From Sanyastnella coralliicola (lineage in GTDB: Bacteria; Bacteroidota; Bacteroidia; Flavobacteriales_D; Sanyastnellaceae): 64,000 bases of DNA. The DNA is taken from positions 575,501 to 639,500 of the forward strand of contig NZ_CP132543.1 in assembly GCF_030845195.1 (NCBI RefSeq), written 5' to 3'. The notes beneath the pieces are model-generated. The model had not been told where the DNA came from, did no database searches, and saw only the letters and a list, made by a program, of their open reading frames with translations. The translations under genes were made by a program, and so were the position numbers. Below are positions 20,228 through 46,025 of the stretch, one piece after another; the stretch's first letter is position 1, and each line of letters opens with the position of its first letter.

Positions 20228-20500
20228 GTTTTTGGTGGACGGTAGACGGTGGACGGTGGACGGTTGACTGGGGAATAATGAATAATAAATAATGAATCGT
20301 GAATTGGTGGACTGTGGACTGTGGACTGTGGACCGTGGACAGAACTTAACTAACCATGCTATCCGACTGAGTCGGACTGACCATGCTACCGCCGTAGGCG
20401 GACTGACCATGCTACCGCCGCAGGCGGACTAATCCTAATTCCGGCGTCCGGCATCCGGCGTCCGTTCTATTTGCATGCCAAGAGTCGATTAAGCACCTTT

Positions 20501-20576
20501 CGCCATTTCGCCATTTCGCCATTTCGCCATTTCGCCATTTCGCCATTTCGCCATTTCGCCATTTCGCCATTTCGCC
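20501..20576 (+). repeat. Octamer array cgccattt, 9.5 copies
   Basis: 76 nt of perfect tandem cgccattt (ggcgaaat on the other strand), period 8. It ends 34 nt before the -33 element and 90 nt before the start of the next gene. The same octamer occurs in shorter arrays at 26570-26600, 28580-28615, 29195-29300, 33230-33254 and 34245-34276. Confidence 0.95.
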
Positions 20577-28440: not shown

Positions 28441-30080
28441 AGGGCGAACGGGCTAAAGGGCGAAATGGCTAACGGAGTCTTGGGCATATGGCGTAAGGCT
28501 TAAGGCCTAAGTTGGCTAAAGGGCGAAAAGGCGAAATGGCCAACGAGGTTCGGGCATATGGCCTATGGCTTAAGGCCTAAGTCGGCTAAAGGGCGAAATG
28601 GCGAAATGGCGAAATGTTATTTGAGTATTCGGAGAGAAAGACAAACTAAAATCGGATGCCGGACGCCGGATGCCGGAGTTAGCATGATTAGTTCCGCCTG
28701 CGGCGGATAGCACGTTCAGGCTGGTTCTGTCCACAGTCCACGGTCCACTGTCTACCATCAGATTTAGGGGTGTTCTCAGCAAAGCTCAATCTAAAATCGG
28801 ATGCCGGACGCCGGATGCCGGACATAGCATGATTAGTTCCGCCTAAGGCGGATAGAATGATCAGGCTGGTTCTGTCCACAGTCCACAGTCCACCGTCCAC
28901 CATTTCAGAGACTGCACTTCGTAAAACGATATCTCGTATTCTCCACGAACCACGAACCACGAACCACGAACCACGAACCACGAACCGAATTTTCGTCACC
29001 TGTAAAACAATGTCCAACACACACAAAGTCGTGCGGTATTAAACGTTTAAAGTGCTAGGAAACAGATGGTTTGAGTCTAAATTGTGCCTGCGTCTGGGGG
29101 TGGGTGGGCCCGCGGCAGCGATGGGCTCAAGGTGGGTGGTGGTTTCTTTTTTTTTTAAGGCTAAAAGGCTAAAAGGCTAAAAGGCTAAATGGCAAAATGG
29201 CAAAATGGCGAAATGGCTAACGGGGTTTGGGCATATGGCGTAAGGCTTAAGGCCTAAGTCGGTAAAAGGGGCTTAAGGGCGAAATGGCGAAATGGCGAAA
29301 TGTTTTAGGGGTGTTCGCAGCTTAGCTCAATCTAAAAACGGATGCCGGATGCCGGATGCCGGACATAGCATGATTAGTTCCGCCTGCGGCGGTAGCATGG
29401 TCAGCCCGCCTGCGGCGGATAGCACGTTCAGGCTGGTTCTGTCCACAGTCCACGGTCCACTGTCTACCATCTGATTTAGGGGTGTTCTCAGCAAAGCTCA
29501 ATCTAAAATCGGATGCCGGACGCCGGATTCCGGACATAGCATGATTAGTTCCGCCTGCGGCGGATAGCACGTTCAGGCTGGTTCTGTCCACAGTCCACGG
29601 TCCACTGTCTACCATCTGATTTAGGGGTGTTCTCAGCAAAGCTCAATCTAAAATCGGATGCCGGACGCCGGATGCCGGACATAGCATGATTAGTTCCGCC
29701 TGCGGCGGTAGCATGGTCAGCCCGCCTGCGGCGGATAGCACGTTCAGGCTGGTTCTGTCCACAGTCCACGGTCCACTGTCTACCATCAGATTTAGGGGTG
29801 TTCTCAGCAAAGCTCAATCTAAAAACGGATGCCGGACGCCGAATGCCGGACATAGCATGATTAGTTCCTCCTAAGGCGGATAGCATGATCAGGCTGGTTC
29901 TGTCCACAGTCCACCGTCCACAGTCTACCTTTTCAGAGACTGCACTCCGTAAAACGATATCTCGTATTCTCCACGAACCACGAACCACGTACTAGGTCCG
30001 TTAAAGAATTTTAACAGCTCGAATGCTTGCATACTATTTCAGAGTTCGCATCTTAGTCTCAACATTAATTCTTAGAACTC
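28441..30080 (+). repeat. 1640-nt repeat island 6 with macro-repeats
   Basis: The largest island; no gene is supported. Two blocks, about 28441-28990 and 29157-29995, have the same plan: ggctaaa/ggcgaaat octads; taaggct/taaggcc heptads; then macro-units of about 145-170 nt. Each macro-unit reads: linker ending gctcaatctaaa, gccggat/gccggac heptads, tagcatgattag, one or two ccgcc..ggcgg palindromes, caggctggttctg, gtccac heptads, tctaccat. Units begin near 28618, 28763, 29300, 29473, 29618 and 29788. Both blocks close with the same tail (ttcagagactgcact, then tccacgaa heptads). Between the blocks lies a G-rich stretch. The last 85 nt lead to the HTH gene at 30081. Confidence 0.88.
29041..29156 (+). 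other. G-rich stretch with T-run between repeat blocks
   Basis: This unique stretch contains GGGGG (29096-29100), GGG (29102-29104), GGG (29106-29108), GGG (29123-29125) and GGG (29134-29136), followed by ten T (29147-29156). It could form a G-quadruplex or the end of a small RNA. It matches none of SRP RNA, tmRNA or RNase P motifs known to me. Low confidence in any function. Confidence 0.3.
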
Positions 30081-33227: not shown

Positions 33228-33570
33228 AAGGCGAAATGGCGAAATGGCGAAATGGATTGGGCTTAGGGCTTATGGCTTAAGGCGTAGGGATGACCGGCTA
33301 AATGGCTAAATGTTTGAGGGGGTACTCCGAATGAAGACCTGTTCGAAATCGGATGCCGGACGCCGGATGCCGGAACTAGCATGATTAGGCCGCCTTCGGC
33401 GGATAGCATGGTTAATTAGGTTCGAACCGCGAACCACGAACCACGAACCACGAACCACAATCCGCAATCCGCGCTCCGCGTTCCGCGCTCCGCGTTCCGC
33501 GTTCCGCGCTCCGCGATCCTCGAAGATTTCTTAGATTGCAAGTACCATAGGAAACACCAAACGATTTAAC
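33228..33570 (+). repeat. 343-nt repeat island 7
   Basis: Order: ggcgaaat octads (33230-33254); ggcttag/ggcttat/ggcttaa heptads (about 33259-33288); ggctaaat octads; a linker; gccggac heptads (about 33351-33374); tagcatgattag; palindrome ccgcc-ttc-ggcgg; tagcatggttaattag; then a 14-unit heptad array at 33423-33520 that changes from cgaacca through caatccg to cgctccg/cgttccg. The remaining 50 nt before the carbonic anhydrase ATG show no clear -7 box. Confidence 0.85.
33423..33520 (+). repeat. Mixed heptad array in one phase
   Basis: Fourteen consecutive 7-nt units without phase break: cgaaccg, cgaacca x4, caatccg x2, cgctccg, cgttccg, cgctccg, cgttccg x2, cgctccg, cgatcct. Positions 5-6 are CC in every unit except for the changing flanks. 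Confidence 0.93.
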
Positions 33571-34228: not shown

Positions 34229-34387
34229 CTTTCTGTTTTTTAAGGGCGAAATGGCGAAATGGCGAAATGGCGAAATGTCTTAGGTGTTTTCCAACTGAGG
34301 CCCTGTCTATAAACGGACGCCGGACGCCGGATGCCGGAAATAGCATGATTAGTTCCGCCTGAGGCGGATAGCATGATTAGTTAACTT

Positions 34388-35518: not shown

Positions 35519-35980
35519 CTAAAAGATTCCCCTAGCCGTCCACTCCTGCTGAATGCGAATCATTTTGAGGTAGTAGGGGATGAGGAAGAGAATTTCAAAT
35601 CGAAAACTGAATTTAACTACATCAGTTACGAAAGGGAGGAGTACCATGGCGAGAAAGCAAATAATGATACCAACAATGGCGTCGATTTGCGCGTATTTGA
35701 CACCCCAGTCTTTTTCAAACCACAATCCGTAGGCTACCAGTCCTTTGAAAAGGTATATCGCGCTAACAATGAACGAGGTGATAGAAAGACTAGAAGATGA
35801 AAGAAGGCCATAAATACTAGAACTGTGTTTTTCGAATATTATGCCAAACACATGTACGAAAGGCGTAAGGATCCCTGATATTAGGAAGAACCAAATGAAT
35901 ATCTTGATCCATACAGGAAGCAACTTTCTTCGGCGTTCCATTCCGTTCTCACGTGGGTTGTCAAGGATCATTTCTTCCAT
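35519..35980 (-). CDS. Small membrane protein of unknown function
   Basis: 153 residues from ATG 35980; a GTG at 36025 is possible but would add 15 residues of no membrane character and overlap the divergent gene's promoter. Four hydrophobic segments are visible (VWIKIFIWFFLISGILTPFV, ITSFIVSAIYLFKGLVAYGL, AIVGIIICFLAMVLLPFV, FRFEILFLIPYYL). No family recognised. A/T-rich compared with the core genes. It is divergent from the large secreted protein gene. Confidence 0.7.
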   Translation of the reverse strand: MEEMILDNPRENGMERRRKLLPVWIKIFIWFFLISGILTPFVHVFGIIFEKHSSSIYGLLSSSSLSITSFIVSAIYLFKGLVAYGLWFEKDWGVKYAQIDAIVGIIICFLAMVLLPFVTDVVKFSFRFEILFLIPYYLKMIRIQQEWTARGIF

Positions 35981-36041
35981 CGGTGTAGTTTTTGAGAAGG
36001 TGAAGATAGCCAAGGAGAGCTTCACACTGGTCGTCTTTTTT

Positions 36042-36049
36042 TATCTTCG
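36042..36049 (+). promoter_or_regulatory. -7 box TATCTTCG next to the start codon
   Basis: TATCTTCG ends four bases before the ATG at 36054. No good -33 TTG was found, so confidence is moderate, but the position matches the pattern seen at maf and mnmH. Confidence 0.5.
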
Positions 36050-36053
36050 CTCT

Positions 36054-39000
36054 ATGCCTTCTTATCTAAAACTCGTTCTACTGCTATTGCTTGTAGGAAC
36101 GGCCTCATTTATTCAAGCTCAAGAAGATTGTGATGGATGGAATTTCCAACTGTTTTATGGGTTCCCAGATTGCAACACAGGAAACTTGGAAGTTAACCTG
36201 AACATTGTAGGGACAGATGATGATGATGACGCCTGGACTGTATGGTTCTCATACGGGTACGGTTATCAACCAATCTTATGGTATGTTGTTGCTGAACCGG
36301 GTGATAACTACTTTAATCTTTCTGGATTTGAGGACTATCCTTTTGAATCTGAATTATTGATTGTAGAGGTGGCGACATCTCCATCTCCCAATTATCCGTT
36401 CGGTCATTGCGTTGAGGAGGAACAGTACAGCTTATCGTATGTATTTAACAATGTAAAGGAACCTGCATACGGAAGCATTCAAGAAGAACAAGGCCCTAGC
36501 TGTGATGGTGCTTTCGACGGATGGATCAGGTTATACAAACAACAGGAGTACGATGATTTCACTCTCAATATTTATCCCGAGAATCCTTATTTAGAAATTG
36601 AATCCTCTGATCAGTACATCGACATCTTCGGAATAACTAATGCAGAATATTCCATAGAGTTGTCCCTTCCAGCTGTTGATGATGCGTTTAATTGCACCCA
36701 ATTATTTGAGATTGATATTCCTGTCAACAATGGAAACTCGATTATTGACTCATATGAAGTTTCGACGGTTGAATGCGTAAATGGTCAATTAGGGTCACGT
36801 GTTGTTACCATTGAACACGATGTGTATCATCATGAAATACTCATCCTTGAAATAGTTGATCAAGAAACGGGAGTAACCGTACCAATATCAACAGAATGGA
36901 ATAGCTCTATTTGGGGGTCTAGTGTGGATGTTTCTGGCTTAAATCCTGGTGAGTACTGTGCCCAGTTTAATCTAATTGGTTCGAGTTGTGTTCAGGAGCT
37001 CTGTTTTGAAGTTGAGAATTCCCCTTACGAATTTACCCTGTCACAACCTGACGTGGAATCCTCTTGCAATTCTGAAGGAGAATATAGTGGTAGCGCAGAA
37101 ATCTCGTATTCTTTGATCGAATCTCTTGAACCTTACATATGGGAAGTAATTGATCAGGAATCAATGGAAGCAATTGAGGCTGAAATTGAGTTGTTAGAGA
37201 ATGAGACGTTTCTTGTTTCGGAATTACCGCCTGGCGATTTTTGTTTTAGAATGGGGTATGAAAACATGGATTGTGCCCGACAATCGTGCTTTACCGTTGA
37301 CCCACCGCCAATTAGTTTCTCTATCGAACAGTCATACTTGAGTCCTTCTTATTGTGATCAAAACGGAGAGGTAGAAGCATGGGCATCATTTACTTATGAA
37401 AATCTAAATGAAGGGATTGGTTTCTCTGCTGAGTTGTTTACAATATTCGGGGCACCTGTTCCAACTTCAATTGCTTGGTACTCCGACTCATTATTGGTCT
37501 TCGCACCCGAAGCCGGAAATTACTGCCTAAGAGTCACCAATAACCAAACGTTGTGTTCAGTTGAATCATGCTTCGAATTGGTTGATTGGACCCCGAATCC
37601 AATTAACGTCGGAGCAATTCAATTAGCTGAGACCTGTGGTGATCCTGATGGAGTAGCTAGTATTCTTTTTGAAGGACCATTAAGTGACTTCCTAATTGAC
37701 AATGTGGAGATTTTTGTTGACCATCCATTTGCAGGTTACTATTCACCGCAGATTCTAGAATTTCAGTACAACGCGATCATTGTTGGATCACTTTATGGTG
37801 GCTATCAAGATATCATAGTGAAGCTGTTCGGATGTGAATGGAGTTTCAATAAGTACATGGGTGAGACTCCGGGTTTAACATTTGAAGGATATACCGCAGA
37901 TCTGGTAACAGTGACCGACGAGAGTTTTATTCTAGATATAGATGTCCAATCGAGTGGTGAGCAGTTTTTTTTGAGCTACGATGGAGTCACCCATTATCTG
38001 CCAGGATTTGTTGAATTCCCTCTAGGAACTGAGCCCGTTGTCAGTTTTTGTCTTTTTGGAGACCCAAATTGCTGCCATGATGTGACGATTCCATTAGAGG
38101 AAATAGCGGGTCTTTACGGAACACCTGTTGGAAGCTATTGTCCGGAAGAACCTGGAGGATTTATTCTCTCTTATTTCTTTTCGGATTATGACATGAGTGA
38201 TTTAGAAATTGATTTAACTCCTCCAGTAGCAGATGCACAGTATGAATATTCAAGTGGGAGCGTTCAAATAGGCAATCTCCCTCAAGGTGAATATACCATC
38301 AATGTTACTTCAGAAATTGACCCGGAATTAACTTTTACAGAGGAGTTTTCGGTAGAATCAACTGACGTTCTCACCCCGCTAGCGATTTGGACCATTGATT
38401 TTCCGGAATGTCATTTAAACCCGACTGGTGTAGCTAAGGCCGTATTTTCCTTCGATGCGAACGCCGCTATTTTGGAGGGTATGGAGATAACCATTAATCA
38501 TCCAGAATTTGGTATTCATGAGGCTGAAATTTTATCTGTAAGCAACAACGAAATTACATTCACAGGACTTTACGGAGGAGTCCAACTGGTAGAGTTCAAT
38601 TATGGAGTATGCCAATGGATACTTTCGAAATCCATGCTCTCTCAACCAGGTGGAAGTTATGACGGCTTTTCGTATTCAATTGGGGAGATTGGTGTGGAAT
38701 TGACTGAAATCTCTGTTGACGTAGATGCGAATGAGAACTTCCAAATGCACTTTCAAGAAGAAGTGTACGATCTGCCTTTGAATGATTATTTCCCTGTTGG
38801 AGAAGAAACGAACGTCTCATTCTGCCTAACAAACGATAATACCTGCTGCGTAGATGAAGTTATTTCCATTCCAGCTTTGGTGTTGATCTATGGTTGTCTT
38901 GATTCAGATGCATGTAATTACAGCCCCACGGCAAATACCGACGATGGATCATGCGCCTACGGGGTGAATTGTGGAGACCTCAATGGCGATGGCAATACGA

Positions 39001-39128
39001 ACGCAGGAGATTTGCTTGAGTTCCTTGCACAATATGGCCAAACCGGTTTTGACCTAACTGCTGATTTCAACGGTGATGGTTTAGTTAACGTAGCAGACTT
39101 ACTAATCTTACTTGGTTACTATGGCTGA
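36054..39128 (+). CDS. Large secreted multidomain protein with dockerin-like C-terminus
   Basis: 1024 residues from ATG 36054. The frame is open to 35841, but MPSYLKLVLLLLLVGTASF is a signal peptide and the upstream part is antisense to the divergent gene. The body has repeated beta-sandwich modules with paired cysteines (PGEYCAQFNL, PGDFCFRMGY, AGNYCLRVTN are equivalent turns). A module of about 160 residues occurs twice (around 505-700 and 770-950), with GLYGG/SLYGG and VSFCL. The end has GCLDSDACNYSP...DDGSC and then two calcium-loop repeats, DLNGDGNTNAGDLLEFLAQY and DFNGDGLVNVADLLILLGYY, like a dockerin. No T9SS sorting domain is seen. Likely a cell-surface or released adhesin; ligand unknown. 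A/T-rich. Confidence 0.85.
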   Translation: MPSYLKLVLLLLLVGTASFIQAQEDCDGWNFQLFYGFPDCNTGNLEVNLNIVGTDDDDDAWTVWFSYGYGYQPILWYVVAEPGDNYFNLSGFEDYPFESELLIVEVATSPSPNYPFGHCVEEEQYSLSYVFNNVKEPAYGSIQEEQGPSCDGAFDGWIRLYKQQEYDDFTLNIYPENPYLEIESSDQYIDIFGITNAEYSIELSLPAVDDAFNCTQLFEIDIPVNNGNSIIDSYEVSTVECVNGQLGSRVVTIEHDVYHHEILILEIVDQETGVTVPISTEWNSSIWGSSVDVSGLNPGEYCAQFNLIGSSCVQELCFEVENSPYEFTLSQPDVESSCNSEGEYSGSAEISYSLIESLEPYIWEVIDQESMEAIEAEIELLENETFLVSELPPGDFCFRMGYENMDCARQSCFTVDPPPISFSIEQSYLSPSYCDQNGEVEAWASFTYENLNEGIGFSAELFTIFGAPVPTSIAWYSDSLLVFAPEAGNYCLRVTNNQTLCSVESCFELVDWTPNPINVGAIQLAETCGDPDGVASILFEGPLSDFLIDNVEIFVDHPFAGYYSPQILEFQYNAIIVGSLYGGYQDIIVKLFGCEWSFNKYMGETPGLTFEGYTADLVTVTDESFILDIDVQSSGEQFFLSYDGVTHYLPGFVEFPLGTEPVVSFCLFGDPNCCHDVTIPLEEIAGLYGTPVGSYCPEEPGGFILSYFFSDYDMSDLEIDLTPPVADAQYEYSSGSVQIGNLPQGEYTINVTSEIDPELTFTEEFSVESTDVLTPLAIWTIDFPECHLNPTGVAKAVFSFDANAAILEGMEITINHPEFGIHEAEILSVSNNEITFTGLYGGVQLVEFNYGVCQWILSKSMLSQPGGSYDGFSYSIGEIGVELTEISVDVDANENFQMHFQEEVYDLPLNDYFPVGEETNVSFCLTNDNTCCVDEVISIPALVLIYGCLDSDACNYSPTANTDDGSCAYGVNCGDLNGDGNTNAGDLLEFLAQYGQTGFDLTADFNGDGLVNVADLLILLGYYG

Positions 39129-39538
39129 TCTCCAGGATGGAAATTTTTGATTGATAGTTGCTACCGTCGAGTTCAACTAAATATACTATCCGCCAGAGGC
39201 GGACTAATCACGCTATCCAGCCGAAGGCGAACTAATCATGCTGATTCCGGCGTCCGGCGTCCGGCATCCGTTATGATCCGTCACAATTCAGGTTTCCCGT
39301 TAATCATGCTACCCCTAACCACCGCAATCCGCAATCCGCAATCCGCAATCCGCAATCCGCAATCCGCGATCCGCGATCCTCTTTCCGCATTCTCCACGGA
39401 CGCCGGACGCCGGATGCCGGATTCAAATGTTAAAATCCACCCCCCTCTGTAAACTTTCGTGTTAGCAATTCGTCTAACGGCATATATGCCGCTTTGGATA
39501 GTTCCCTAACTTACTTAGCGGTACGAAACTGACCAGTC
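39129..39538 (+). repeat. 410-nt repeat island 10
   Basis: Starts with two palindromes (ccgcc-aga-ggcgg type and a degenerate one) joined by actaatcacgct, then tccggcg/tccggca heptads (about 39245-39268), a linker, tacccctaacc, and a long heptad array 39325-39420. The remaining 118 nt lead to the DUF1800 gene; no clear -7 box. Confidence 0.83.
39325..39420 (+). repeat. Mixed heptad array joining caatccg and gccggac families
   Basis: Units in one phase: caatccg x6, cgatccg, cgatcct, ctttccg, cattctc, cacggac, gccggac, gccggat, gccgg. The array passes from one family to another through intermediate units without shifting phase. Confidence 0.9.
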
Positions 39539-41389
39539 ATGAAATACTCACTCCTCGCCGCCATGGCGCTGTGGTGTTTGTCTGCGCAATCCCAGATCTT
39601 TCAAGATCATTTTGGGGCCGGACAAGACAACGGCGTCACGGTCACCTCGTCGAGCCAGTCGAATGGTACTAGCCACCAAGCGACAATCAATGGTCTCGGC
39701 CTCAACCAACACCTGAAGGATGCGTCTCGCTTCCTGGGGCAAGCATCACTCGGTGCAGATTATGAATTGATTCAAGATGTAGCTTCTGTAGGACCAGAGT
39801 TCTGGATGGAACAGCAGTTTGAAGCACCACTCGTTTCCTTCCGCGATACGATGGATATGGTGTGGAACGACTTCCTCCAACAGTATTACGATATCTATGG
39901 AGAAGAAGAGGTCTACGAAAACCCAAACATTTTCCCATTGTCGATCTATTGGCGTCAAGCTTGGTGGCATAATGTGATGCACTCGGAAGACCAGTTGCGA
40001 CAGCGAATCGCCTTGGCGCTTTCTGAAATCTTCGTGGTTTCGGAACGCAGTGACTTGGAAATCGCAGGACATGGGTTGGCAGCGTACTATGATATGCTCT
40101 ACCAAAATTCTTTCGGCAACTTCCGCGACTTGATTGAGGATGTGACGATGCACCCCGTGATGGGCTACTACTTAAGTCACCTCAACAACGAGCGAACCGA
40201 TGAAGAGAACAACATCCAACCCGATGAGAATTATGCGCGTGAGGTCATGCAGCTGTTCACGATCGGTTTGTATGAGCTAAATAACGACGGTAGTATCCAA
40301 TTCGACGATGACAATGAACCGATTGCATCTTATGATAACGATGACATTCAGGAGTTCGCTAAGATCTTCACCGGACTAGCACCAGCAGAATACTGGTGGC
40401 ATTGGGATGATATCAGTGATATCCCAGTCCAATGGGATGGTGAGTTCAACACCATTCCAACCATCAATACGTGGTTGCCAATGGAGATCAACGAAGCATG
40501 GCACGAACCAGGGGAGAAGTACCTACTCAACGGACAAGTAGTTCCTTCAGGTCAATCAGGGGCAGAAGATATTTCTGATGCCATGGACAACCTCTTCAAT
40601 CACCCGAATGTGGGGCCTTTCATTGGTAAGCAGTTAATTCAGCGCCTAGTGAAGTCGAACCCTTCACCGGAATACGTTTCGCGTGTCGCAGATGCATTCA
40701 ACGATAACGGGGAAGGCGTACGTGGAGATATGAAAGCAGTGATTCGCCAAGTCTTACTGGACCCAGAAGCTCGTGACTGTGAATGGATCGAACTTCCTTC
40801 GAGCGGTAAGATGCGTGAGCCGATGATTCGTATGACACAGATCCTTCGCGCCTTTGACGCGGCGAATGAGTCAGGAGATATGTGGGCCGTTGGTGGATGG
40901 TACCAAGAAGCGACCTACCAATCGCCACTCGGGGCCCCTTCGGTATTCAATTTCTTCCTGCCAAGTCACTCACCTCACGGACCAATCTTCGATGAAGGAC
41001 TCGTAGCTCCTGAGTTTGAGATCTTGACTTCGGCGACAGCCATTAACTATGTCAATCTCGTGTACTTCATGTTCCTGGGTGATTTCTATCTAGATGTGAG
41101 TACTGAAGCCAGCGAAAACAACATTGGTTTCCCTGAATTCAACTGGGATCTTTTGGCAGAAGAAGATCGCGTTGATCTTGACCTCAGTGATGAGGTCTTA
41201 CTCTCCACGCAAGGAGAAGTCTTGATGGATCGTTTGGATATACTCCTGACTGGAGGAACCATGTCAGACGAGACCAAAGAAGAGATCGGCGACGCAGTCG
41301 AACTGATGGCCCTCTTTGATGATGAGGCCGCGGTGAAAGCAGGTATTTTCTTAACACTAATCAGCCCAGACTATGTCATCCAAAAATAA
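39539..41389 (+). CDS. DUF1800 family exported protein
   Basis: 616 residues with signal peptide MKYSLLAAMALWCLSAQSQ. DUF1800 features: LKDASRFLGQASLGADYELI, LRQRIALALSEIFVVSE, YYDMLYQNSFGNFRDLIEDV, MHPVMGYYLSHL and DENYAREVMQLFTIGLYELN, then GVRGDMKAVIRQVLLDPEAR. DUF1800 proteins are nearly always encoded beside a DUF1501 protein, as here; the role of the pair is unknown. The family usually starts its fold at the same place, so length is normal. It overlaps the next gene by 17 nt. Confidence 0.92.
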   Translation: MKYSLLAAMALWCLSAQSQIFQDHFGAGQDNGVTVTSSSQSNGTSHQATINGLGLNQHLKDASRFLGQASLGADYELIQDVASVGPEFWMEQQFEAPLVSFRDTMDMVWNDFLQQYYDIYGEEEVYENPNIFPLSIYWRQAWWHNVMHSEDQLRQRIALALSEIFVVSERSDLEIAGHGLAAYYDMLYQNSFGNFRDLIEDVTMHPVMGYYLSHLNNERTDEENNIQPDENYAREVMQLFTIGLYELNNDGSIQFDDDNEPIASYDNDDIQEFAKIFTGLAPAEYWWHWDDISDIPVQWDGEFNTIPTINTWLPMEINEAWHEPGEKYLLNGQVVPSGQSGAEDISDAMDNLFNHPNVGPFIGKQLIQRLVKSNPSPEYVSRVADAFNDNGEGVRGDMKAVIRQVLLDPEARDCEWIELPSSGKMREPMIRMTQILRAFDAANESGDMWAVGGWYQEATYQSPLGAPSVFNFFLPSHSPHGPIFDEGLVAPEFEILTSATAINYVNLVYFMFLGDFYLDVSTEASENNIGFPEFNWDLLAEEDRVDLDLSDEVLLSTQGEVLMDRLDILLTGGTMSDETKEEIGDAVELMALFDDEAAVKAGIFLTLISPDYVIQK

Positions 41390-42809
41390 TGCACACAAGA
41401 ACGGCATGTCGCGCCGTAAATTCCTCGGGCAAGCTAGTTGTGCCCTGGTAGGATCAGCGACCTTCCTCAATTCTTACTTCAACTTGGGGATGATGAATGC
41501 GCTCGCAAAACCAGCGATGAGCTCACCGTTGATGCCATTGACGGGTGACTATAAGGCTACAGTATGTATTCTTCTAGCAGGAGGAAATGACAGCTACAAC
41601 ATGCTGGTTCCTTCTACAACGGAGATCTACAATAACTACGCTGCTTCTCGTTCGAATCTTGCGTTACCGCAAGGAAGCTTACTTCCTTTGAACTTCACAG
41701 ATGGAGACGGCTATAGTTACGGTCTACACCCAAGCATGCCGGAACTTCAAGGTTTGTTTAACACTGGAAAGGCGGCCTTCATTTCGAATGTCGGCACGCT
41801 TCGTCAGCCAACCACCAAGCAACAGGTGATCGATGGTACAGCGCTGCTTCCGCTCGGATTGCTTTCGCACTCGGATCAAATTCAACAATGGCAGACGAGC
41901 TTGCCTCAAGAGCGTACCTCGAAAGGTTGGGGTGGACGAATGGCCGATATCCTGCACACCTTGAATGACAATCAGGATGTGAGTATGAGCATTTCACTCA
42001 GTGGGGTAAACACTTTCCAAACTGGAAACGAGATCATTGAATTTGCGATTGAGAATTCTGGAAATGGAAGTGTGGGAATCAACATCTTCGAAGAAGAAGA
42101 CCCATTCAACCAATTGCTTGGAAATACAGCGCAAAGTGTACTTGAGCAAGAGTACCAAGACATCTTCAAGCAGACCTACCGCGACAAGGTATTGAACGCA
42201 CAAGGGTCACACGAAGCCTTTAGTTCTGCGATTGCAGGGGTGAGTGAGTTTGTAACGCAGTTCAACCCTCAGAACCCAATTTCACAGAACATGCAGATGA
42301 TTGCGAAGAGTATCGCAGCAAGCTCTGTTCTAGGACATACGCGCCAAACCTACTTCCTTACTTTCGGGGGGTGGGATCACCACGATGAGGTTCTTGAGAA
42401 TCAACAAGCGATGCTTGCCCTCGTGTCTCAAGCCCTCGGAGAATTCCAAGCAGCAATGGAAGAGATCAACATGGATGATTGTGTAACCACTTTCACCATC
42501 TCTGATTTCGCCCGAACACTCACTTCAAACGGAAACGGAACGGATCACGCATGGGGCGGAAACGCTATCGTGATGGGCGGCGCAGTTAACGGCGGACAAA
42601 TCTATGGTCAGTACCCGAACCTCGGATTGGGATCAGACCAAGAGGTAGGAAATGGAATCATCCTTCCAACAACATCCGCTGATGAGTACTTCGCTGAACT
42701 CGCCTTATGGATGGGCGTGGAACCAGGAGACATGGAGTACATCCTCCCGAACCTGGGTGAATTCTTCGACATTAATAATGGCCAGCCAATCGGCTTCATG
42801 AATATCTAA
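41373..42809 (+). CDS. DUF1501 family protein with Tat signal
   Basis: 478 residues. Twin-arginine signal near the start (MSRRKFLGQASCALVG), so it is exported folded. DUF1501 belongs to the alkaline phosphatase/sulfatase-like fold; seen are VCILLAGGNDSYNMLVP, LHPSMPELQGLFNTGKAAFI, SHSDQIQQWQ and SDFARTLTSNGNGTDHAWGG near the C-terminus. The overlap of 17 nt with the DUF1800 gene indicates coupled translation. Substrate unknown. Confidence 0.92.
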   Translation: MSSKNNAHKNGMSRRKFLGQASCALVGSATFLNSYFNLGMMNALAKPAMSSPLMPLTGDYKATVCILLAGGNDSYNMLVPSTTEIYNNYAASRSNLALPQGSLLPLNFTDGDGYSYGLHPSMPELQGLFNTGKAAFISNVGTLRQPTTKQQVIDGTALLPLGLLSHSDQIQQWQTSLPQERTSKGWGGRMADILHTLNDNQDVSMSISLSGVNTFQTGNEIIEFAIENSGNGSVGINIFEEEDPFNQLLGNTAQSVLEQEYQDIFKQTYRDKVLNAQGSHEAFSSAIAGVSEFVTQFNPQNPISQNMQMIAKSIAASSVLGHTRQTYFLTFGGWDHHDEVLENQQAMLALVSQALGEFQAAMEEINMDDCVTTFTISDFARTLTSNGNGTDHAWGGNAIVMGGAVNGGQIYGQYPNLGLGSDQEVGNGIILPTTSADEYFAELALWMGVEPGDMEYILPNLGEFFDINNGQPIGFMNI

Positions 42810-42813
42810 GACC

Positions 42814-43539
42814 ATGAAAAAGACACTCTTTCTATTTTCATTGATCACATCAAGCTTGCTGGCCTCAGCGCAATGTGATTTCGGCTCACACAGCATTAAC
42901 TGGGAAGACGCCTGGTTGTCATGCTCCACTTCCGAAAACCCAAACCCAGAACGCGGTGAAGGACATTGGATCATGTACGATCTCGGTTCACCACATGCTT
43001 TCTTTGAGTCACACATCTGGAACTTAAACGTACCAGACCAAACAGGACAAGGCGCACGCAACTGCTACTTTGATTTTTCTGTTGACGGAGAGACATGGGA
43101 GAACTTCGGAACCTTCGAGGTAAACGAAGCCCCAGGAAACGATGACTACTCCGGAGAATCAGGCCCCTATTTCGACGGCATCGTCGGACGATACATGCTC
43201 ATCACCATCGACACCAACTGGGATGGAAGTGAATGCTCAGGTATCTGCGAGATCAAGGTAGACGTAGAAGACACCACAGTCGATATCGAAGAAATCACGG
43301 CCTCTCTTGAGTTCAGCGCGTTCCCTAACCCGGTACGTGACGTCCTCACCATCCGCCACTATGAAAGCGGTACCCTAGACCTCGAAGTCTACAACAGCTC
43401 CGGCCAACTCGTCCACAGCGACCAAGTATTCGGAACGACATCTTTCCTTGAGGTAAGCTCTTGGGAAGGAGGGTTGTACCTCGTTGTATTGAAGAATTCA
43501 GAAGGGGTGCGGGCTGTTAGGAGAGTGGTGGTAGAGTGA
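42814..43539 (+). CDS. Secreted protein with T9SS type A sorting domain
   Basis: 241 residues. Signal peptide MKKTLFLFSLITSSLLASA. Residues about 20-150 form a discoidin-like jelly roll (WIMYDLGSPHAFFESHIWNL, CYFDFSVDGETWENFGTF, GRYMLITIDTNWDGSECSGI). The last about 80 residues are a T9SS sorting domain: FSAFPNPVRDVLTIRH, DLEVYNSSGQLVHS, GGLYLVVLKN, ending RAVRRVVVE. It starts 4 nt after the DUF1501 gene, so the three genes form one operon. The protein should be displayed on or released from the cell surface by T9SS and may bind a polymer. Confidence 0.92.
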   Translation: MKKTLFLFSLITSSLLASAQCDFGSHSINWEDAWLSCSTSENPNPERGEGHWIMYDLGSPHAFFESHIWNLNVPDQTGQGARNCYFDFSVDGETWENFGTFEVNEAPGNDDYSGESGPYFDGIVGRYMLITIDTNWDGSECSGICEIKVDVEDTTVDIEEITASLEFSAFPNPVRDVLTIRHYESGTLDLEVYNSSGQLVHSDQVFGTTSFLEVSSWEGGLYLVVLKNSEGVRAVRRVVVE

Positions 43540-43721
43540 TGTTAGTCCGCCTGAGGTGGATAGCATGATTAGGACCGCCTAAGGCGGATAGCATGGTCAG
43601 GCAGATAGCAGTAATTCGATTGTTATGGAAACGGATGCCGGACGCCGGATGCCGGAATTAGCATGATTAGGCGGATAGTAATTATTCGATTGGTATGGAA
43701 ACGGACGCCGGACGCCGGACG
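43540..43721 (+). repeat. Repeat island 11, left part
   Basis: Two ccgcc-type palindromes with tagcatgattag, then two similar stretches (gcggatagtaat-tcgatt-gttatggaaacgg) at about 43605-43633 and 43674-43703, each followed by gccggac/gccggat heptads. The array stops at 43721, where the IS3 element is inserted, and resumes at 45045. Confidence 0.83.
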
Positions 43722-43761
43722 AGTCCCATCCTGAAATAGGTTGACATTAAAACCAAACACA

Positions 43762-44124
43762 ATGTCACAAACCTATTCAATCCGCCAGCGCTTCAGTTTA
43801 GCGCTAAAACATGAGATCTGCGACCTAGTGAGCAGTGGTGAAATGAGCATGACAGAAGCACGTAGACACTTTCATATCAAGGGTCATAGTACAATCCTAG
43901 ATTGGATGCGTAAATTTGGTTATCTCGAGACCCATCAAGCCATGTCACATCCATCTAAGAAAGAAGATCCAGAAGCTCTAGCAGCTCGTATTCGTGCCTT
44001 AGAAGCGCAGCTAAAAGAGGAAAAACTCAAGACTCAGTTACTTGATGCGATGATCGATATAGCTGAAGATCAGCTGAAGATCAACATCAGAAAAAAGTCC
44101 GATACCAAGCAGTCGAACAAGTAA
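43762..44124 (+). CDS. IS3 transposase OrfA
   Basis: 120 residues from ATG 43762. Helix-turn-helix protein that binds the IS ends: IRQRFSLALKHEICDLVSSG, MTEARRHFHIKGHSTILDWM, then a leucine-rich coiled coil LAARIRALEAQLKEEKLKTQ. A TTG at 43741 lies in the inverted repeat and is not needed. The frame carries the slippery heptamer A AAA AAG at 44091-44097, in phase, so part of the ribosomes shift by -1 into OrfB. Confidence 0.93.
   Translation: MSQTYSIRQRFSLALKHEICDLVSSGEMSMTEARRHFHIKGHSTILDWMRKFGYLETHQAMSHPSKKEDPEALAARIRALEAQLKEEKLKTQLLDAMIDIAEDQLKINIRKKSDTKQSNK
44091..44097 (+). promoter_or_regulatory. Programmed -1 frameshift site A AAA AAG
   Basis: The codons of OrfA here are AGA-AAA-AAG, giving X XXY YYZ exactly. 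The -1 frame is open from 44097 without stop to the OrfB end at 44999, so a fused OrfAB protein can be made. This arrangement is well known in IS3-family elements. Confidence 0.9.
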
Positions 44125-44150
44125 AACAGGAGAATGCAAGCACCTCCCTG

Positions 44151-44999
44151 GTGGTGTTATGCAGGCTACTTGGTGTAACCAGACAATCGTATTATAAATC
44201 ACAGAAGACAAGGGAGCGAACGCTTTTGCAAGAGGAAGTGGTTCTATCTCTGGTGTCTGAAGTCCGTTCCAAGCTACCACGAGTTGGTACACGCAAGCTG
44301 TACCATATGATCAAGTCAGAAATGGATGAAAATGAGTTGAAAATCGGTCGAGACCGTCTGTTTGATATTCTTCGCTCTAATGGGATGTTGGTAAAGGTTC
44401 GTCGTAACAAGGCCAAGACGACGTTCTCCTACCGTTGGTTTAATCGCTTCGATAATCTCACAGAAGGAATCCGGCTTAGTGGGTCTAACCAACTGTGGGT
44501 GAGTGATATTACCTATGTTCGAGTAGGTAGTAAGTTCTTGTACTTATCCTTGATTACGGATGCTTACTCAAGACGAATCGTGGGTTATCATCTATCGCGC
44601 TCCTTGGATCGTTCAGGATGTATAGCCGCCTTGCGAATGGCGCTATCAACGACAACCAGCACGGAAGGTCTTATCCATCATTCAGATCGCGGAGTCCAAT
44701 ACTGTTCGAGTGAATACACAGCATTGCTGGAACAACACGGAATCCGAATCTCAATGACTCAGAACTCCCAACCGTTGGACAATCCTAAAGCTGAACGAAT
44801 CAATGGTATCATCAAAGGAGAGTTCTTAGATAGCTACAACTTAAGAGGCTTAGATGACGCACGAGAAGGAGTCCGCAAAGCTGTTGCACTGTACAACTCG
44901 CTTCGACCACATGAAAGCTTAAGGCTAGCTACGCCCAACCAAGTTCACTTTGAAAAAGACAACCTAAAACAGGAAACAAGAACACTTGTAAACCTATAA
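44151..44999 (+). CDS. IS3 transposase OrfB (integrase core)
   Basis: 282 residues if started at GTG 44151; more likely made as an OrfAB fusion by frameshift. DDE domain of the rve type: WVSDITYVRV (first Asp), LIHHSDRGVQYCS (second Asp), and QNSQPLDNPKAERINGIIKG with the Glu. The N-terminal part RLLGVTRQSYYKS is an HTH_21 domain. All catalytic residues are present, so the element is probably active or recently was. Confidence 0.95.
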   Translation: MVLCRLLGVTRQSYYKSQKTRERTLLQEEVVLSLVSEVRSKLPRVGTRKLYHMIKSEMDENELKIGRDRLFDILRSNGMLVKVRRNKAKTTFSYRWFNRFDNLTEGIRLSGSNQLWVSDITYVRVGSKFLYLSLITDAYSRRIVGYHLSRSLDRSGCIAALRMALSTTTSTEGLIHHSDRGVQYCSSEYTALLEQHGIRISMTQNSQPLDNPKAERINGIIKGEFLDSYNLRGLDDAREGVRKAVALYNSLRPHESLRLATPNQVHFEKDNLKQETRTLVNL

Positions 45000-45044
45000 C
45001 AGTAAATTAGTACAAACACTGTCAACTTTTTTTAGGACGGGTCA

Positions 45045-45114
45045 ACGCCGGACGCCGGACGCCGGACGCCGGACGCCGGACGCCGGACGCCGGACGCCGG
45101 ACGCCGGACGCCGG
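45045..45114 (+). repeat. Heptamer array acgccgg, 10 copies
   Basis: 70 nt of perfect tandem acgccgg (= gccggac), ten copies, directly after the IS right end. It is the right half of the array in which the element landed; hemF ends 9 nt after it. Confidence 0.95.
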
Positions 45115-45122
45115 TGTATGTG

Positions 45123-46025
45123 TCATTTTCTAATACCCAGATAATCAATCCCCTTCCTCAGCCCCGCAAGCGTCTCCGCCTCACGACTACCCTCTTCCGG
45201 TTCGTGCATGTATTCCCAGTTGGCAGTAGCAGGGAGGCTCATGAGGATCGACTCTGTTCGTCCGTTGGAGATGAGGCCGAAGCGGGTGCCGCGATCATGG
45301 ACGAGGTTGAACTCAACGTAGCGTCCGCGGCGTAGGAGTTGCCATTCTTTTTCTGAAGATGTGAAAGGAAGGTCTTTCTTCTTTTCCGCGATAGCGATAT
45401 ACGTAGGAGCGAAAGTTCGTCCGACGGCGCAAGCGAAGTCAAAGAAGTCTTGTTTGTTGCCGCCTTCTCGTCCGAGGTCATCGAAGAAGATACCTCCGAT
45501 ACCGCGTGTTTCATTGCGATGCGGGAGGTAGAAGTAGTTGTCTGCCCAGTCTTTAAATTTCGGGTAATAGGCTGCATCAAATCGATCACACACGCCTTTC
45601 ATTTGTTCGTGGAAGAAGCGTGCTTCGTCACGATCAATGTAGTGTGGAGTCAGGTCAATTCCGCCGCCGAACCAGTACGTCCCGTCGCTCAATTCGAAGT
45701 AGCGAATGTTCATGTGAATGATGGGAACTGGCGGGTTGTTCGGATGAAGTACAATGCTCACCCCAGTGGCAAAGAAGGTCTCAGAATCGTTTTTAAGCTG
45801 GGCTTTCAACTGAGGCGAACAAACCCCATGGACTTCTGAGAAGTTCACTCCACCTTTCTCAATAACGGCGCCATCACGCATCACGCGTGACCGACCTCCG
45901 CCTCCGCCTTCGCGGTTCCATGAATCTTCTCTGAATGTTCCTTTTCCATCAAATTCCGCTAGCGCGGAACAGATCTCATCTTGAATCGACTGATATGCCG
46001 AGGTGATCTCTTGTCTAGTGGGCAT
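45123..46025 (-). CDS. hemF: Oxygen-dependent coproporphyrinogen III oxidase
   Basis: 300 residues. Converts coproporphyrinogen III to protoporphyrinogen IX with O2 in heme synthesis. Seen: WNREGGGGGRSRVMRDGAVI, EKGGVNFSEVHG, the conserved YFELSDGTYWFGGGIDLTPH with the metal-linked His residues, and GRYVEFNLVHDRGTRFGL. The length is normal. The start overlaps the end of the LysM gene by 11 nt, so it is last in the guaA-LysM-hemF unit. Its 3' end lies 9 nt from the gccggac array. Confidence 0.97.
   Translation of the reverse strand: MPTRQEITSAYQSIQDEICSALAEFDGKGTFREDSWNREGGGGGRSRVMRDGAVIEKGGVNFSEVHGVCSPQLKAQLKNDSETFFATGVSIVLHPNNPPVPIIHMNIRYFELSDGTYWFGGGIDLTPHYIDRDEARFFHEQMKGVCDRFDAAYYPKFKDWADNYFYLPHRNETRGIGGIFFDDLGREGGNKQDFFDFACAVGRTFAPTYIAIAEKKKDLPFTSSEKEWQLLRRGRYVEFNLVHDRGTRFGLISNGRTESILMSLPATANWEYMHEPEEGSREAETLAGLRKGIDYLGIRK

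Follow-up and report, generated by a model that had tools for sequence, protein, structure and literature searches.

In the genome sequence sampled here, the seven-nucleotide period of intergenic arrays outlives the sequence of their units, a conclusion supported by the phase kept between directly adjacent blocks of different heptamers. The stretch at 39325-39421, which an earlier note had read as one array passing in phase from CAATCCG to GCCGGAC units, is probably something else, an array and an unrelated 25-bp module that abut by chance, with arrays evolving by unit slippage, substitution and re-amplification. This junction, best read as a coincidence, matters less than the genome-wide pattern.

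The source genome (G000, Flavobacteriales) is a single contig (C1) of 4,097,636 bases, and the window is the whole stretch of 64,000 nucleotides that was analysed (G000:C1:575501-639500). Comparisons were made with a sister species of the same genus (G001), whose DNA identity to the source genome is about 93% over the longest aligned stretches, with a further member of the genus (G002), and with two distant Bacteroidota (G312 and G347) related to the source genome at phylum level only. L-numbers label individual sequence stretches that were examined; coordinates without a label are window positions.

Anatomy of the array site

The array site sits in a 410-bp intergenic gap between a dockerin-ended gene on the left and a DUF1800 gene on the right (Table 1). 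The earlier note had sliced 39325-39422 into 14 heptamers, and both its letters and its 7-nt slicing are borne out: the units read CAATCCG x6, CGATCCG, CGATCCT, CTTTCCG, CATTCTC, CACGGAC, GCCGGAC, GCCGGAT and GCCGGAT. Two of the intervening units, CTTTCCG and CATTCTC, are a degenerate array tail. The form CCTCTTTCC[GA]C[AT]TTCTC is also the end of a second CNNTCCG array, at L031:14354-14397, behind which no GCCGGAY module is found. The tail is not widespread: its pattern CCTCTTTCCNCNTTC is matched exactly at just these two sites in the source genome, and allowing one mismatch gives 16 matches, compared with 8 when the pattern is reversed as a control. The CNNTCCG array pattern TCCGCNNTCCGCNNTCC is matched 190 times in the whole genome (overlaps counted), and a strict hairpin pattern with the AGCATGATTAG motif 30 times in 864 kb. 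Arrays of 8-nt units (TTTCGCCA / GGCGAAAT) share gaps with heptamers at window 20498-20576 and 34245-34277.

Table 1. Coordinates of repeat features and genes in the window
Feature	Position	Strand	Evidence or remark
CCACGAA x6 array	28943..28986	+	Faces CCACGCA x5 in G001, left flank alike
Better phase-kept junction, CGAACCA units into CAATCCG/CGNTCCG units	33423..33523	+	Shift similarities 4, 1, 2, 2, 1, 3, 3; kept phase best
Upstream gene, dockerin type I at C-terminus	35841..39128	+	PF00404, E 5.4e-6
Hairpin unit of ~28 bp, two copies, TAATCAYGCT connector	39186..39242	.	TRF period 28, 2.1 copies
Inverted second copy of the 25-bp module	39246..39270	-	Pairs with 39397-39421 in centroid fold
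CNNTCCG heptamer array (CAATCCG x6, CGATCCG, CGATCCT)	39322..39380	+	TRF row 39322-39379, period 7, 98% matches; unit slicing
Degenerate array end (CTTTCCG CATTCTC C)	39381..39395	+	Recurs as end of the L031:14354-14397 array
A + 25-bp dispersed module CGGAYGCCGGAYGCCGGAYGCCGGA	39396..39421	+	One of 46 copies
Downstream gene, DUF1800	39539..41389	+	PF08811, E 4.7e-80
DUF1501 gene, after the DUF1800 gene	41373-42809		PF07394, E 3.5e-30

The right half of the stretch is a copy of a dispersed module. Among 46 distinct copies of CGGAYGCCGGAYGCCGGAYGCCGGA, 27 are 25 bp long, seven 24 bp, nine 17-18 bp, two 39 bp and one 66 bp, so that 34/46 measure 24-25 bp in varied surroundings; since the pattern fixes the end letters, length alone counts as an independent result. 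The pattern allowed no mismatches and copies 40 bases or less from a locus end were left out, and at least one of the short rows (window 29510) is really a full-length copy with one change. An exact 19-base module pattern was found at 46 places in the source genome and 8 in the sister species, and had zero matches in the other 58 genomes searched. The interior of the module happens to be 7-periodic, and the module itself may be derived from a heptamer array, as the two 39-bp copies and the 66-bp copy hint.

The earlier note had the CAATCCG and GCCGGAC families joining in one phase. A phase between unrelated heptamers requires a common register, and in the claimed register 0/7 letters agree; the seven shifts give 0, 3, 2, 2, 4, 2 and 1 agreements, which makes the claimed register the worst and 4 the best of the others. 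At lag 7 across the module boundary (39389-39395 vs 39396-39402), 2/7 positions match. Genome-wide, three sites including this one have a module within 30 bp behind an array on the same strand; their offsets are 5, 3 and 1. One further match of the search was an inverted module pair. The opposite-strand arrangement occurs 13 times (offsets 2, 1, 1, 2, 3, 3, 3, 5, 2, 0, 5, 5 and 5), several of these sites being local (tandem) copies of each other. Given this scatter, CNNTCCG arrays and GCCGGAY modules keep no single phase. At one same-strand site (L251) an inverted module also lies upstream of the array, and at L250 an inverted module pair has nothing array-like between.

These results bear on true drift, in which the GCCGGAC units would descend from CAATCCG via intermediates within one continuous array. 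Drift is favoured by the 11/22 positions that match at lag 7 over 39373-39394, a wider zone in which lags 4-6 and 8-11 match 4-8, and by real one-phase drifts elsewhere (see below); the zone falls mostly within the degenerate array tail. Set against this are the 0/7 letters shared in the kept phase and the 2/7 across the boundary, the mostly fixed length of the module that forms the right half, and the different offsets of the other two same-strand sites. We consider such a descent quite improbable. Register, module length and scattered offsets led us to reject drift from CAATCCG to GCCGGAC at 39325-39422, and the kinship by drift that had been proposed for the two families is unsupported, GCCGGAY being a mostly fixed-length dispersed module.

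The site has no counterpart for comparison in the sister species: window 36009-45126, including the DUF1800 and DUF1501 genes, is absent from the syntenic place, so the array at 39325-39422 cannot be compared there. A piece of the missing stretch, 44534-45087, matches a different contig of the sister species, C57.

Phase keeping between adjacent heptamer blocks

Phase was evaluated in 864 kb using perfect lag-7 cores (at least 7 matches; 264 cores, with identical junctions collapsed to leave 115). A junction between unlike neighbouring units was counted as phase-kept when, of all registers, the units resembled each other most in the one that continues the phase. At a best similarity of 5 or less, phase was kept in 8.0/11 junctions with a gap of 0 or less (expected 1.6) and in 5.5/9 with a gap of 1-7 (expected 1.3), so that directly adjacent dissimilar heptamers combined gave 13.5/20 vs 2.9 expected. 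At gaps of 8-150 bp the classes gave 1.0/5, 3.3/16, 3.2/15 and 3.5/27, or 11.0/63 in sum vs 9.0 expected. With the stricter best similarity of 4 or less, phase was kept in 2.0/4 and 4.5/8 junctions of the two nearest gap classes.

The direction of the effect was alike in the other genomes, on small numbers. Stretches of the sister species had 3.5/6 phase-kept junctions at gaps of 7 or less and 1.5/12 at 8-60, and four stretches of G312 and G347 had 3.0/3 at near gaps and 0.0/4 at wider ones; in G002, every gap class had fewer than two junctions. The proposal that what is maintained is the period and not the sequence thus stands for the sampled source genome and, on those small numbers, for the stretches of G001 and of G312 with G347, but the locus on which it was built, 39325-39422, is a poor example of it. 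One in seven, the rate of phase-kept junctions that the earlier note had named as fatal to its reading, is not exceeded by the CAATCCG/GCCGGAC pair at its few sites, but is exceeded by directly adjacent heptamer blocks generally.

Long tracts drift in one phase through many heptamers, as at L022:11783-11958 (176 bp) and, in G312, L265:885-1002 (118 bp). The latter and L254:950-983 place one-phase drift in a distant Bacteroidota genome as well, with units including GCCTAAA and CAATCCG. A polar series AGTTATT, GATTATC, CGTTTC, AGACCC (L025:4900-4995, L025:6361-6470) recurs at many places in the source genome and the sister species, its order and phase mostly constant from AGTTATT to AGACCC, and is perhaps an old dispersed element.

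Evidence for a genome-wide order of heptamer families is weak or mixed. With strict patterns the order was near-perfect, the one exception being families d and f, whose patterns overlap. With single-unit anchors, a count that left out d/f pairs and collapsed the L030 junctions, 66/77 were concordant in the source genome vs 56.1 expected and 53/66 in the sister species vs 47.9; the families were defined after the tracts had been seen, and most of the signal comes from the pairs f-g (13:4) and g-h (10:1). A literature search on phase-kept changes between heptamer families found no description in the listed titles and opening lines of abstracts, a level at which absence from print is unproven.

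Abundance, known heptamer systems and turnover

Period-7 tracts are abundant in the source genome. The window has 37 tracts at lag 7, and twenty 20-kb stretches taken at even spacing (400 kb in all) have 96, whereas a single first-order Markov draw made for each of the two gave 0. Over 800 kb (forty such stretches) we counted 179 at lag 7 and at most 19 at each of the remaining lags between 4 and 13; the lags up to 30 with at least 20 tracts besides 7 were 14 (112), 21 (55), 28 (35) and 27 (20). In 400 kb of G002, lag 7 gave 20 tracts and lag 6 gave 47, so the period-7 excess is not common to the whole genus. After prior removal of short repeat-rich ORFs, 205/216 tracts lay outside crude ORFs, non-coding DNA being 12% of the sequence.

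The arrays are diverse: the 165 in 864 kb represent 56 distinct heptamers. GG or CC is present in 147/165 arrays. As a rule for all heptamers, a GG anchor was rejected, since the 43/56 distinct units that have it are a modest excess over 35.4 +- 2.8 in composition shuffles. When units are read circularly, GGG or CCC occurs in 7/56 distinct units and 8/165 arrays, and the common units have GG only. In TCCGCNN arrays, whose fixed part was imposed by the search pattern, the 128 units had AA (44), GA (36), AT (27), GT (15) or others (6) at NN. Among 395 genomes drawn from the phylum, three contained the exact array CAATCCGCAATCCGCAATCC, namely the source genome, G312 (2 matches) and G347 (18).

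Heptamer arrays are already known, and the source genome is a rich, multi-family variant with phase-kept changes. Heptamers are the most abundant class of long simple sequence repeats (Mrazek et al. 2007, as quoted in PMC4679880 and PMC4692102), and the contact length of the polymerase has been proposed as a reason for slippage, as quoted in the same two papers. Like such repeats, the 7-nt tandem units here exceed chance and are mainly intergenic; unlike them, they comprise many different heptamers, with one-phase changes between them. The Xanthomonas (GGGANTN)n and Nostoc GGGGA(C/T)T repeats are described in PMC4692102 as heterogeneous G-rich heptamers of G4 type, with G runs, that lie between the same genes and differ in length and sequence among related species. 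The source genome shares with (GGGANTN)n the fixed and variable unit positions (TCCGCNN, with the caveat on its fixed part given above), and its arrays likewise vary in length and sequence from one related species to another, but its families are many, GG being usual in them where the others have GGG, and its units do not each carry a GGG/GGGG run. TAACTGA intergenic direct repeats, located just upstream of start codons, are reported from Beggiatoaceae, some Cyanobacteria and five Bacteroidetes, in a system of one heptamer whose relatives, by the account in PMC4679880, are seldom or never repeated. The arrays described here are likewise intergenic heptamer direct repeats in Bacteroidetes, but many heptamers are repeated, related ones included. 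The heptamer repeats of cyanobacteria are termed STRR. Calothrix PCC7601 has three tandem heptanucleotides (PMC4692102), and as in STRR several tandem heptamers occur within one genome here. With 56 heptamers, phase-kept changes and a ~93%-identical sister whose arrays have turned over, the two species offer many natural replicates, which let one measure whether a 7-nt preference in slippage would suffice.

Arrays in the sister species have lengthened, shortened or switched unit: between the two genomes, matching places carry GGTATGC x9 vs about 2 copies, CCGTCCA x6 vs about 2, and CNNTCCG x11 vs about 4. For arrays in general, drift combined with re-amplification is supported by this species pair, in which CCACGAA x6 faces CCACGCA x5 (Table 1); this does not extend to CAATCCG and GCCGGAC. 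Some short tracts are the same in both species (for example L127:7759-7788). Among orthologous arrays, 5/17 changed lengths were multiples of 7 (2.4 expected) with 10 rows unchanged, reciprocal duplicates included; a looser first count gave 10/42 rows (6 expected), with reciprocal and spurious rows among them. With so few multiples of 7, whole-unit steps are not cleanly demonstrated.

CNNTCCG arrays are more homogeneous inside than between arrays: adjacent units were identical in 46/106 cases (0.43), where pooling the 22 arrays predicts 0.256, and once array identity was accounted for, unit order within these arrays showed no clear influence of the neighbouring unit (p = 0.11). In L030 (G000:C1:3050001-3070000), repeated intergenic stretches have similar flanks around GGTTCGT, GGTTATT or GGTTTTT arrays. 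These stretches, whose array units differ, are spaced about 1.75-1.94 kb apart, with one gap of 3.6 kb.

Mechanism and alternatives

These data allow us to propose a mechanism. At the array site, two independent intergenic repeat elements would abut, a CNNTCCG array whose end is degenerate and one of the dispersed 25-bp modules, and the 7-multiple spacing between them would be a one-in-seven coincidence. Arrays would gain and lose whole heptamers by replication slippage or unequal exchange, while substitutions accumulate in them and altered units are re-amplified. Under whole-heptamer turnover with re-amplification of changed units, period and phase would outlast the sequence, and since units are gained or lost whole while single letters are substituted, phase would be kept without selection on sequence. 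We infer slippage as the step, and substitution rather than error-prone copying as the source of the changes. In a simulation of slippage and substitution with hand-chosen, hand-tuned rates, 35.7/42 junctions were phase-kept at one of four settings and the other three gave almost no cores, so it is no more than a demonstration that these two processes can suffice; an earlier version gave 7 junctions in 400 runs.

Alternatively, an enzyme copying in steps of 7 nt could lay down heptamers with errors, the step being fixed and the sequence variable. The strong period-7 excess over many different heptamers would fit such a templated process, as would tracts of 118-176 bp that drift in one phase, a unit differing from the next by several changes, and CAATCCG arrays in two distant genomes among the 395 searched. 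Arguing against it, slippage and substitution can yield phase-kept junctions in simulation, arrays are more homogeneous inside than between, and the sole enzyme sought, a Y1 transposase, gave one match (G000:C1:260062-260367), its gene preceded by a different palindromic repeat. An enzymatic writer of this kind is improbable. In its broader form, low-fidelity copying with a built-in 7-nt step would write or rewrite intergenic tracts in this genus and other Bacteroidota, with period and phase inherited and sequence free; this too we regard as unlikely. Were it true, one would see its traces in the polar series, AGTTATT to GATTATC to AGACCCT, that recur.

A selected function, with arrays as binding or structural sites where only the 7-nt pitch counts, seems very unlikely: the intergenic position of the tracts, the 52/187 classed intergenic tracts between convergent genes vs 105/623 gene pairs, and an inverted module pair around the array that folds better than 199/200 shuffles (centroid fold of 39240-39425, module 39246-39270 pairing with 39397-39421, z = -3.14) favour it, but the arrays differ strongly between the sister species, G002 has no array upstream of its DUF1800 orthologue, and the G-rich strand has no coding or template preference in tandem gene pairs (50 vs 48). 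The same strand counts left a transcription-linked role set by strand unsupported.

In the mechanism of slippage, substitution and re-amplification, the 25-bp module would spread by a route other than that of the arrays. REP/RAYT elements are palindromes adjoining a Y1 transposase gene, and neither the 25-bp module nor the hairpin unit was found in that arrangement. Ahead of the sole Y1 (RAYT-like) match, in L249, stand about eleven repeats of about 45 bp with the palindrome GGGCACGCATGCGTGCCC or one near it; these repeats and the Y1 gene look like a REP/RAYT pair, distinct from the 25-bp module.
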